61,225 bases of DNA from Thermococcus sp. (GTDB lineage Archaea > Methanobacteriota_B > Thermococci > Thermococcales > Thermococcaceae), in the NCBI RefSeq assembly GCF_027011145.1, contig NZ_JALVAO010000045.1:1-61225 (forward strand). Direction: 5' to 3'. The notes below the pieces were generated by a model that was not told the origin of the DNA, did no database searches, and was given only the letters and a program-made list of their open reading frames with translations. Each line of letters opens with the position of its first letter. The first letter of the stretch is position 1. Of this stretch, positions 4,503-55,391 are shown one piece after another. Position numbers and translations under genes: made by a program.

Positions 4503-4798
4503 GTTGCAATAAGACTCTAGAAGAATTGAAAGCCGTGCCCGACGAAGCACTCCAGACTACACCAAGCAGGTTGCAATAAGACTCTAGAAGAATTGAAAGT
4601 GGATGAAATTGTCGTTGGGATAAAAGGGTTGGCTAGTTGCAATAAGACTCTAGAAGAATTGAAAGCAGGGCAACTGTCTTCCAATCCACTCCAAAGTACC
4701 TCGTTGCAATAAGACTCTAGAAGAATTGAAAGAAAATCATAATCAGGAAACTGATAATCCCCCGCAACGTTGCAATAAGACCCATCAGAACAATCAAA
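4503..4798 (+). CRISPR. Short CRISPR array: 5 repeats (last degenerate), 4 spacers
   Basis: Four identical 30-bp repeats lie at 4503-4532, 4570-4599, 4636-4665 and 4703-4732. A fifth at 4769-4798 keeps the first 13 bases but diverges after that. Spacers are 4533-4569, 4600-4635, 4666-4702 and 4733-4768 (36-37 bp). Each full repeat ends in ATTGAAAG, the 5' handle of crRNAs in Thermococcales, so transcription is on the plus strand and the decayed repeat is the old, leader-distal end. No cas gene is in the window, so the array must rely on Cas proteins encoded elsewhere. The spacers differ from each other; I saw no match to them in the rest of the window, but this was not a systematic search. 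Confidence 0.97.
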
Positions 4799-32903: not shown

Positions 32904-33383
32904 ATGCTGAGGGAGATACTCAACCTCGACTCGGGCATTGTGATGGTCTCAGGGGGAGGCAGAAAGATAGCGAGGATTTACTTCCAATCGTGGGTAAAGC
33001 GGAGAAGAAAGGCCCTAGCTGAAGGGCTTCCTTTTTCAGTCGAGGGCGAAGTCTACGTTGGAAACCCCTTCCTGGCGGACTTTCCGGTTTATCTAATCGT
33101 CAATCCTCTGGCCAGAAAAAGTGTCGAGCGGGAAAAGTTGCTCCACTGGCTTGAACTTAAACGCAAGGAGGAAAAGCTCGTTCTCCTCTATGAGGAGCGC
33201 TACGTCGGGGATTCGATAGTCAGATACAGACTTAGGAACTACCTCGACTACCTCATAGCCTACCGGAGGGAAACTGTAGGAGTAGAGATTTTGAACGTTT
33301 ATAAGCTCGAAAACGGCCGGGTTGTTGAGAGGAAGACATACATAAGGCGCCCGATGACGAGTGGCTTCGGGTCTGAGAGGTGA
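32904..33383 (+). CDS. Hypothetical protein upstream of ftsY
   Basis: This 159-residue protein is not recognised. It is basic, has no membrane segment, and has alternating strands and helices; [15 protein letters not shown] and [20 protein letters not shown] are the most distinctive parts. ATG 32904 follows AAGGGAAGCGT. It lies divergent from the BMP operon and 62 bp before the ftsY start, with a TATA box of ftsY (TTTTTATATG) overlapping its downstream flank. Confidence 0.6.
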
Positions 33384-33445
33384 TGACACCAGCTATCGCC
33401 GAGGGCTTTTTATATGCCTTCCCCATTTCTTCTCAGGGTGAGAAC

Positions 33446-52116: not shown

Positions 52117-52874
<758 letters not shown>

Positions 52875-52955
52875 CTAATCCCCCCTGTTCCACTGGTTTG
52901 GATTTATGGATAGAACTGTATCTGGCATCTGAGGTGGCTAATTGATTAGGTCTAT

Positions 52956-53390
52956 TTAAAATTTTTTGGTTTTGTCTCCGAAAGCATAGGACATGTAGTA
53001 GTGGATTAACTCTTCTACCTTTGAGAAGTCCCTCTCTTTCAGGCCCAGCATTTTTCTTAACCTTTTGTTCTCGGCAATTAAGCCCGAGAGAGTTATTGCG
53101 AGGTTTTGATTGTCTAAGGCGGAATAATAGGCCTTAAACTTTAGGGGCGACCACTTCCCTTCGAGCTCGTAGAGTTGCTCTTCAAGTTTTTCAATGTCTT
53201 TTTCAAGCTGAAGTATCTCCTCTTCACTGACGGACTTATCCAAATATCCATTGAGAAGTATTATTCTAAGGGCTTCATCAACTCGGAAACCGTTTCGTCT
53301 ACATGCTTCCTCTATTTTTCTCCACAATTCATCTGGAACGTTAAATGTTACTTTTCTCCACTTTCCCCTTCCACGTACGACTATTTTCAT
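52956..53390 (-). CDS. Ribbon-helix-helix protein with coiled-coil tail
   Basis: This 144-residue protein begins with a basic stretch and a ribbon-helix-helix-like domain (WRKVTFNVPDELWRKIEEACRRNGFRV is the strand and first helix; DEALRIILLNGYL the second). A coiled coil of about 35 residues and a helical tail follow. RHH proteins bind DNA as dimers. It is the last of four genes led by the fluoride riboswitch and overlaps the coiled-coil gene by 50 bp. ATG 53390 follows GGTGGGAAAA. The target is unknown; the operon promoter is one candidate. Confidence 0.7.
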   Translation of the reverse strand: MKIVVRGRGKWRKVTFNVPDELWRKIEEACRRNGFRVDEALRIILLNGYLDKSVSEEEILQLEKDIEKLEEQLYELEGKWSPLKFKAYYSALDNQNLAITLSGLIAENKRLRKMLGLKERDFSKVEELIHYYMSYAFGDKTKKF

Positions 53391-53691
53391 TTTTCCCACC
53401 TATCTGCTTTCTCAGTATTTCGTTTTCCCTGCTCAGCTCACTCCTTAGTTTAATCATATACTCCCTGTCTCGCTTTGCCCTTTTCTCGAACTCAAGGAGT
53501 TCCCTGTAATGAGCTTCCATCTCTTGGAGTTTTTTCGAGAGTTTTTCCTTTTGCTCAAGGAGAATCTCATATTTGAGGACTTTTAGAGTTCTTTCAAGTC
53601 CTTCAACGTCTTTCAGTCTTTCTTCTATCTCCCTTCTCCTTTTTCTGATTTTGTCAAGTTCCTCTCCACTTACCTCAATTTCAATGGCCAT
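53341..53691 (-). CDS. Coiled-coil protein of the fluoride-riboswitch gene set
   Basis: A 116-residue protein that is nearly all coiled coil, with two long charged segments (LDKIRKRRREIEERLKDVEGL and LSKKLQEMEAHYRELLEFEKR) and a basic end. ATG 53691 follows GAAGGAGGGAAAAGAA. It overlaps its upstream neighbour by 22 bp and the RHH gene by 50 bp, which shows tight co-translation. It may serve as a scaffold or partner for the neighbours; I know no family. Confidence 0.6.
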   Translation of the reverse strand: MAIEIEVSGEELDKIRKRRREIEERLKDVEGLERTLKVLKYEILLEQKEKLSKKLQEMEAHYRELLEFEKRAKRDREYMIKLRSELSRENEILRKQIGGKNENSRTWKGKVEKSNI

Positions 53692-54338
53692 TTCTTTTCC
53701 CTCCTTCTTTCCCTGCATTCTGGCCCGACTTCTCTCCCTGAAAAGAACTCGATTGTCTCGGCGAGAGCCCGTCTTTCCTTCTCACTAGGTCTTCTCTCTA
53801 CCCTGTAATCAAAAGTATCAACAAAGCTTTCAAGCCTCTTAAGGAGTCTTTCCAGTTTTCTCCTCTGGATTTGTGATAGTTTTTCCTTAAGCTTTTCATC
53901 ACTAATCCTATTTAATATTTCTTCGTAATGTCTTCTGCATAATATAGAGGGGGACTTTTCGTAGGACTCAATAAGAGATGGAAGTCTCTCAGAGAAGGAT
54001 TCAAGAAGAGTTTCTTCTTTTTCTGAGGAAAGCTTGCACAGAAAACATTCTTCTGTGCTCTGACCCCCCTTGAGGTACCATTTAAGAACGTCTTCGTAGA
54101 TTACTGAAATACCGTGGGGACCGAGGAGAGGATTTGAAAGGGCGAGTTTTAGCGTCTTCCATGCATGCCTTGGGCATAGTCCTAGGCTCTTTTGAAAGGC
54201 TTTTCTGACCTCTGGATCATTGGGGTGTTCGTAGAGTATCGTTTCTATCTCTTCCTTTTCGAACTTTTCAACTAACCTGCATATTGGACAGCCTTCTTCC
54301 TCCATTGATTTTTTAAGTTCAATCTCAATGATGTCCAT
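53670..54338 (-). CDS. DUF6062-like protein with two CxxC...LCxRH units
   Basis: The 222-residue protein has two similar units: GCPICRLVEKF with SLGLCPRHAWKT, and CFLCKLSSEKE with ILCRRHYEEIL. Each CxxC and Cys-x2-His pair could bind zinc in a helical frame, as in DUF6062. A basic coiled tail follows. ATG 54338 follows GAGGAGC 5 bp after the stop of the upstream gene. The function of the family is unknown. It is the second gene after the fluoride riboswitch. Confidence 0.72.
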   Translation of the reverse strand: MDIIEIELKKSMEEEGCPICRLVEKFEKEEIETILYEHPNDPEVRKAFQKSLGLCPRHAWKTLKLALSNPLLGPHGISVIYEDVLKWYLKGGQSTEECFLCKLSSEKEETLLESFSERLPSLIESYEKSPSILCRRHYEEILNRISDEKLKEKLSQIQRRKLERLLKRLESFVDTFDYRVERRPSEKERRALAETIEFFSGREVGPECRERRREKKWPLKLR

Positions 54339-54343
54339 GCTCC

Positions 54344-55213
54344 TCACGGAATGTACTTTATCATCGAGTCAACAACTGCTAGAGCCCGATATGTGTTCTG
54401 GAAGTTTGAAATACCCAGCTCGAGGCTCCTTCTAAAGCCTCCGTTTGGGTTTTGAAGCTGATGAATGAACCATATGTGCCTCTTGGGGCATGTTGGTGTC
54501 TCTTTTTGAAGTTCAAGGCCTCTAGTTGCGTAAAACGTTGGCTCAAGGTAGGGTGGAAGGCTGTAAGGCACCTCGGTAAAGCCACCCCAGTCACCACAGA
54601 GCTCGCAGTTCCTGAAGTGTGGGCTCTTTGGAGGTTTGTATCCGAGGGTGTAGAGGGTAAACAGCGCCTGGTATGTCATCGTGGTCGTTGGTTGTTTGAC
54701 TCCATAGCCGTTGCCGTTGCGGAACTTCATGACAAAGGTCCTGATGGCGTCCCTTTCCTCGGAATCAAATTTCACGCCTATCTTGTCAAAAGCCTTTGTG
54801 ACCCAGTATGTGGCCTCGAGTGGTGTCGCCGTTCCGAACTCCTCGCTTCCACCGAGACCGACGGCAAACTTTCCTTCGGCGGGGTTATATTTGGTGAATA
54901 CTATCTCACTCTTCTCCCTTGCGAGGTCTTTGGCGCCAAGAAGGGCAAGGCCTTCGAGGGCCATTGCTATGGCCACTACAGCAGTCTGGGGCTGTATTGA
55001 CCTGGACAGAAATTCTATTGTTTTCTCCGGTTCTGGAAACTCGAGTTCAAGAAGGTTATAGATTTTGATAGCGTAGTAGGTATCGTTCACGTTTGTATCG
55101 TCGAGAACACTGACGAAGCAGTAACCACCATCTTCATGACGTCTTTTCTCAACATAGCGAAGAGCATTATTAACGTCAACGTATCTACCAATTTCATACA
55201 GCTTCGAGCCCAT
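54344..55213 (-). CDS. Terpenoid-cyclase/prenyltransferase-fold (alpha-alpha barrel) protein
   Basis: The 289-residue protein consists of repeats of the squalene-cyclase/prenyltransferase beta type: EDGGYCFVSVLDDTNVNDTYYAI, GYGVKQPTTTMTYQALFTLYTL and NPNGGFRRSLELGISNFQNTYRAL. A CELCG motif near residue 207 and a Cys near 250 might bind metal. The DxDD and CaaX features of the classic enzymes are not seen, so activity is unclear. ATG 55213 follows AGGAGGTGAGAGA. It is the first gene after the fluoride riboswitch; its link to fluoride is inferred from that position. Confidence 0.75.
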   Translation of the reverse strand: MGSKLYEIGRYVDVNNALRYVEKRRHEDGGYCFVSVLDDTNVNDTYYAIKIYNLLELEFPEPEKTIEFLSRSIQPQTAVVAIAMALEGLALLGAKDLAREKSEIVFTKYNPAEGKFAVGLGGSEEFGTATPLEATYWVTKAFDKIGVKFDSEERDAIRTFVMKFRNGNGYGVKQPTTTMTYQALFTLYTLGYKPPKSPHFRNCELCGDWGGFTEVPYSLPPYLEPTFYATRGLELQKETPTCPKRHIWFIHQLQNPNGGFRRSLELGISNFQNTYRALAVVDSMIKYIP

Positions 55214-55235
55214 TCTCTCACCTCCTGTGGAGAAC

Positions 55236-55296
55236 AGGCGTCATCAGCCCTTTCGGGCGGTTCGGGCTCGAAGCCCACGGCGGACGCCATCGCCCT
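55236..55296 (-). ncRNA. Fluoride riboswitch (crcB motif) in the leader of the 54344 gene
   Basis: On the minus strand the leader reads GGGCGATGGCGTCCGCC and later GCCCGAAAGGGCTGATGACGCC (in parts). P1 pairs GGCGTC (55288-55283) with GACGCC (55242-55237). The pseudoknot pairs GGCG (55294-55291) with CGCC (55282-55279). The GCCC-GAAA-GGGC hairpin (55258-55247) is followed by the conserved TGATG. This matches the well-known Thermotoga aptamer feature by feature; an extra hairpin GGGCT-TCG-AGCCC (55276-55264) is inserted between the CGCC strand and the GNRA stem. A TATA box (CTTTTAAAGC, 55323-55314) places the start at about 55295, the first aptamer base. Confidence 0.9.
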
Positions 55297-55300
55297 TATT

Positions 55301-55311
55301 CACTTAAAGTG
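55301..55311. promoter_or_regulatory. Small dyad CACTT-A-AAGTG between TATA and start site
   Basis: This 11-bp inverted repeat (arms CACTT 55301-55305 and AAGTG 55307-55311) lies between the TATA box of the riboswitch transcript and its expected start. It could bind a repressor, possibly the RHH protein of the operon, but it is short and may be chance. Confidence 0.3.
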
Positions 55312-55391
55312 GTGCTTTAAAAGTTTCATGGTTCAATGCTCTTAAGAACCCTTATAAATACAACTCCCGCTACTGTTTCGAGAGGGGGATA

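Follow-up and report, generated by a model that had tools for sequence, protein, structure and literature searches.

Which gene is controlled by a fluoride riboswitch that stands, in Thermococcus sp., directly before a gene with no known fluoride role, and by what means? The classical target of this riboswitch is crcB, and to our knowledge only a small number of archaeal riboswitches are validated, with little known of their mode of action on expression. The placement before a gene of this type is already published: in T. kodakarensis, a report of 2014 noted that the crcB RNA surprisingly precedes TK0513 and not crcB (TK0514), and mapped a start site between TK0513 and TK0514 (PMC4247193). One fluoride riboswitch of T. 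kodakarensis is reported to work in vivo, with fluoride binding and a change in gene expression (Speed et al. 2018, doi 10.1128/AEM.02306-17, as cited in PMC8241225).

Results

A full-length fluoride riboswitch with an inserted hairpin

The window analyzed here is the whole stretch of 61,225 nucleotides. A preliminary description had placed a fluoride riboswitch at 55236-55296 and proposed a search of the minus strand with the Rfam fluoride model. This search gave a match above threshold: RF01734 (Fluoride) aligns at 55303-55228 (-) over the full length of the model (1-64), with 52.7 bits and an E value of 8.8e-12 (cmscan; gathering score, 34 bits). The element was right and its end points were about 8 nt too tight. 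Every part of the crcB motif listed in that description was found in the sequence, namely the core motif GGGCGATGG, the pseudoknot GGCG/CGCC, P1 GGCGTC/GACGCC, GCCC-GAAA-GGGC, and TGATG, and the extra hairpin appears as a 13-nt insertion in the RF01734 alignment. As a member of the family the element is ordinary; its expression platform appears to be a new variant. Judged by its sequence, the window copy would be expected to bind fluoride. It is the only copy found in this genome, and it sits between a TATA-like box (55323-55315) and the start of the first gene, PT (55213). The box spacing would put the transcript start at about 55295. The parts are as follows.

55315-55323, minus strand: TATA-like box CTTTTAAAG (BRE/TATA-like), predicted promoter of the riboswitch transcript (sequence reading)
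55228-55303, minus strand: fluoride riboswitch aptamer, RF01734 (cmscan)
55291-55294, minus strand: pseudoknot 5' strand GGCG, partner CGCC at 55282-55279 (RF01734 alignment, sequence)
55283-55288, minus strand: P1 5' strand GGCGUC (RF01734 alignment, sequence)
55264-55276, minus strand: inserted hairpin GGGCU-UCG-AGCCC; bases 55275-55263 are predicted to pair, in the OFF state, with the start region of PT (RF01734 alignment, duplex and fold prediction)
55247-55258, minus strand: P2 hairpin GCCC-GAAA-GGGC (RF01734 alignment, sequence)
55237-55242, minus strand: P1 3' strand GACGCC (RF01734 alignment, sequence)
55220-55225, minus strand: Shine-Dalgarno-like GGAGGU (sequence reading)
55200-55212, minus strand: strand UGGGCUCGAAGCU of the start region, beginning at the U of AUG and ending in codon 5, 13-bp partner of the inserted hairpin (duplex and fold prediction, codon constraint)

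Elsewhere in the window, Rfam models matched a C/D box RNA (sR28, RF01136, 57.9 bits) at 33350-33404 and four above-threshold copies of a CRISPR repeat (CRISPR-DR6) at 4503-4732.

crcB is the fifth gene behind the riboswitch

The riboswitch is followed on the same strand by a run of six genes.

54344-55213, minus strand: PT, a 289-aa alpha-alpha-toroid protein of the TK0513 type, first gene (PF00432, E 6.3e-11)
53670-54347, minus strand: DUF6062 protein (PF19538, E 2e-16)
53341-53718, minus strand: CC1, small coiled-coil protein (open reading frame with no Pfam match, recurring in most relatives)
52956-53399, minus strand: CC2, small protein, possibly with a ribbon-helix-helix-like N terminus and a coiled coil (open reading frame with sub-threshold matches only, recurring in most relatives)
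52954-52964, minus strand: TATA-like AAATTTTAAAT before crcB, predicted own promoter (sequence)
52503-52874, minus strand: CrcB (Fluc) fluoride exporter (PF02537, E 8.9e-31; TIGR00494 above cut-off)
52117-52497, minus strand: DUF190 protein, the usual crcB neighbor in the Thermococcales genomes examined (PF02641, E 2.6e-38)

The preliminary description had assigned the first gene to the terpenoid-cyclase fold and placed the riboswitch before it and not before crcB. A first gene of the terpenoid-cyclase/prenyltransferase fold without known fluoride role was indeed found, but crcB is present as gene 5 (52874-52503), and its absence from the locus was rejected. The riboswitch is linked to fluoride-resistance genes, crcB and DUF190 being genes 5 and 6 of the run, 2.35 kb downstream, and the surprise of the placement is partly dissolved by this downstream crcB. 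The TATA-like box suggests that crcB-DUF190 is probably under its own promoter, and this fits with T. kodakarensis, where TK0514 has a start site to itself (PMC4247193).

The riboswitch stays with PT across Thermococcales

In a genome search centred on the phylum of the window, 88 of the 94 Thermococcales genomes carried one or two RF01734 copies, a recurrence that puts the riboswitch far beyond chance. For reading of the gene context, 80 further sites were retrieved: 66 stand immediately in front of PT (one, in G076, is broken), 14 before a hydrogenase-type operon, and none directly before crcB. By coordinates alone, 21 more copies abut PT, so that, with the 66 and the window, every one of the 88 genomes has a single riboswitch before PT; a second copy (G046:C82) was left unclassified. 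PT itself was found in 90 genomes, all Thermococcales. No relatives outside the order were found by a contig scan with two short peptide patterns, which distant relatives could escape, and none in other members of the class at E 1e-8. Two of the 90 gave no aptamer match and are telling. In G012, which is 99% complete, PT is intact, only a 3' remnant of the aptamer is left, and crcB has no match (L166), while in G080 PT is broken, the aptamer lost, and crcB intact (L172). The genes that separate PT from crcB vary; the constant partner of the riboswitch is PT. Directly upstream of the g3 copies, Rfam detected no known structured RNA.

These data bear on the possibility that the whole six-gene run is under the riboswitch, crcB being the real target and PT, like the rest, a passenger. 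In favor of it, crcB is what this riboswitch classically controls, crcB-DUF190 follow the riboswitch on the same strand in most Thermococcales genomes, and genes 1-4 of the run overlap or abut. Against this reading, crcB never takes the first position in Thermococcales, and in G004-G009 and G020, where crcB lies tens of kb or more away, the riboswitch remains with PT. A separate riboswitch before the relocated crcB was considered and rejected, as these genes have short leaders with no RF01734 match. The TATA-like box before the window crcB, the mapped start between TK0513 and TK0514 (PMC4247193), and a predicted helix built from PT codons, described below, also argue against it, and we regard crcB as an unlikely main target.

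Complementarity between the inserted hairpin and the start of PT

The preliminary description had recognized the extra hairpin but missed its complementarity to the region of the PT start codon. Over 13 bp, the hairpin sequence GGGCUUCGAGCCC is the reverse complement of AUGGGCUCGAAGCU in the start region of PT, and duplex prediction in the window gives a helix of 13 consecutive pairs at -25.7 kcal/mol, hereafter the lock. In 45 of 66 loci, the leader pairs better with the start window than with 99% or more of that gene's other windows; about nine loci lack a strong lock in this duplex test. Pairing of Shine-Dalgarno sequences alone (TTCTAC/GTAGAA or CGCC/GGCG) was rejected as an account of the lock, as it occurs in only part of the loci and the first pairing can coexist with P1.

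The codons involved are constrained beyond the protein sequence. Among the 62 PT genes that start with MGS, codon 2 is GGC in all 62, compared with 35% of the Gly codons in the rest of the same genes; TCG is the third codon in 61, compared with about 10% of the other Ser codons. The canonical insert goes together with GGCTCG codons in 56/56 loci, whereas the codons are altered in five of the ten loci with altered inserts (Fisher p 3e-5, uncorrected for the relatedness of the loci, so that independence is overstated). One of these ten (L110) still keeps a complementary stretch. Nine of the ten genomes with altered inserts (G022, G042, G049, G051, G055, G057, G059, G065, and G066) are among the fifteen with a second riboswitch.

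At 37, 60, 80, and 90 C alike, the lock is part of the predicted minimum-energy fold, in ViennaRNA calculations that can weigh neither the pseudoknot nor bound fluoride and are rough at 80-90 C. Forcing P1 costs 7-10 kcal/mol in the fold prediction, pseudoknot and ligand not counted. When codons 2-7 are replaced by synonymous ones, the predicted unpaired fraction of the start region at 80 C is 0.57 instead of 0.23, and predicted long-range pairing drops from 0.75 to 0.37. This long-range pairing is kept in the predicted folds of 59 of the 66 loci.

The complementarity could instead reflect a protein-binding site or another constraint on the first codons and not a regulatory helix. In favor of this, no compensatory double change in the helix was found in the 56 canonical loci, where changes are one-sided only (G-U type), and the helix is missing in some loci; both points also weigh against the lock. 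On the other side, amino acids do not demand GGC and TCG at nearly every locus, codons and insert vary together, and recoding weakens the predicted pairing. A constraint of this kind seems to us quite improbable as the explanation.

We give similarly little credence to transcription attenuation in place of a translation block. In favor of it, many bacterial crcB RNAs overlap terminators (PMC2864571), and the T. kodakarensis RNA is described as an 86-nt species seen in growing and not in stationary cells (PMC4247193). In the window, however, no U-tract terminator was found between the aptamer and the PT start codon, a Shine-Dalgarno-like sequence and the start codon come directly after the aptamer, and codons 2-3 are conserved at synonymous positions.

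A second riboswitch class precedes a hydrogenase operon

The 14 sites before a hydrogenase-type operon form a second class.

L031, L034, L036, L039, L040, L043, L045, L046, L049, L051, L053, L055, L057, and L059: second-class riboswitches (n = 14)

None of the 14 has the inserted hairpin. All 14 carry, between the Shine-Dalgarno-like sequence and the start codon, a decoy GACGCC, a copy of the P1 3' strand, and in all 14 the codons contain CCCGGA, which pairs with UCCGGG at the 5' end of the aptamer. The predicted 80 C folds of the 13 copies that were folded use one or both helices. For this class the duplex test on single windows gave no significant result, and the predicted lock came out only in the two-helix fold. 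Our predictions suggest that the second-class switches carry at their start codon a lock different from that of the PT class.

Short CC1/CC2 homologues lie about 120-530 nt upstream of nine of these riboswitches (L031, L034, L036, L039, L045, L051, L053, L055, and L057), hinting at a shared fluoride-linked role.

PT is a toroid protein with no conserved zinc site or DxDD motif

The AlphaFold model of PT is a confident alpha-alpha toroid (pLDDT 90), with RabGGTase beta (E 2e-5, TM about 0.6) and squalene-hopene cyclases as best Foldseek matches. An alignment of 18 PT sequences (A1) showed no conserved D-x-C of the protein prenyltransferase zinc site (Asp-x-Cys ... His), C32 being the only invariant Cys. 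The DxDD of class II terpene cyclases is not conserved in the 18 sequences either; the nearest motif is [DNA][DE]TN, with variable acidic positions. As neither site is conserved, prenyltransferase and cyclase names and activities are not transferable to PT. Its fixed linkage to the riboswitch makes an accessory fluoride-tolerance protein the most likely role.

A genome from another family of the class (G099) carries, on the same strand, crcB-DUF190, a fluoride riboswitch, a dynamin-like GTPase directly behind it (L173, 5988-3113), a small ORF, and a gene for a toroid protein, for which PF00432 gave no second match in the genome. This toroid aligns with PT by profile comparison and is the one relative, at the fold level, that turned up outside Thermococcales. 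One case in one genome, it is suggestive of a toroid gene in the fluoride locus of a second archaeal lineage. In G110, the riboswitch directly precedes crcB.

Discussion

The reading that we favor, and hold to be reasonably likely, is that a genuine fluoride riboswitch controls the translation of PT, which is OFF without fluoride, by means of the insert/start-codon lock. In the modeled OFF state, the inserted hairpin would open and its bases 55275-55263 would pair with the start of PT, over a stretch that begins with the U of AUG and reaches into codon 5, blocking initiation. The lock helix crosses P1, as it joins the segment between the P1 strands to the segment beyond them, so that lock and folded aptamer should exclude each other. 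With fluoride, the pseudoknot and P1 would form, P1 would displace the long-range helix that it crosses, the insert would close on itself, and the PT start codon would be freed. Genes 2-4 may follow by translational coupling. Given the great stability predicted for the OFF fold, the aptamer probably prevails only if it forms while the RNA is still being transcribed.

As the lock is made from codons of PT itself, this gene is likely the direct target, which suggests that PT and not crcB is the main control target of the switch. The lock is likely a worthwhile new element; no description of it was found in the literature searched, a search that excluded Speed et al. 2018. If true, it provides a translational mechanism that can be tested directly at 80-90 C, accounts for the puzzling published finding that the RNA stands before TK0513 and not crcB, and marks out a protein family of unassigned function as a factor in the response to fluoride. 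For use as an expression tool, the untranslated leader alone, minus the first five codons, would lose the predicted lock.

A wider proposal, to which we would give even chances, is that PT is an unrecognized, order-wide archaeal fluoride-tolerance protein to which the riboswitch is dedicated via pairing of the insert with codons 1-5, that two different start-codon locks evolved for two Thermococcales fluoride regulons, and that a toroid protein was recruited to the fluoride locus in a second archaeal lineage too.

Comparison with known systems

PT shares the alpha-alpha toroid fold with RabGGTase/FTase beta subunits and class II terpene cyclases but differs from them in its lack of a conserved D-x-C zinc site or DxDD. 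As in T. kodakarensis, the aptamer lies before a non-crcB gene, with crcB downstream and its own start site, which is predicted in the window; here, DUF6062, CC1, and CC2 separate PT from crcB, and the available text of PMC4247193 does not describe the insert/start-codon helix. All core elements of the bacterial RF01734 type are present in the window copy, which differs by a 13-nt hairpin between the pseudoknot strand and P2 and by a lock on the start codon, predicted to act on translation, in place of a terminator. An association with hydrogenase genes is known in general, formate hydrogenlyase-type operons having been listed with fluoride riboswitches (PMC2864571); the 14 Thermococcales second copies likewise precede a hydrogenase-type operon, but they have no insert, and the elements predicted to lock their start codon are a decoy GACGCC and a CCCGGA.
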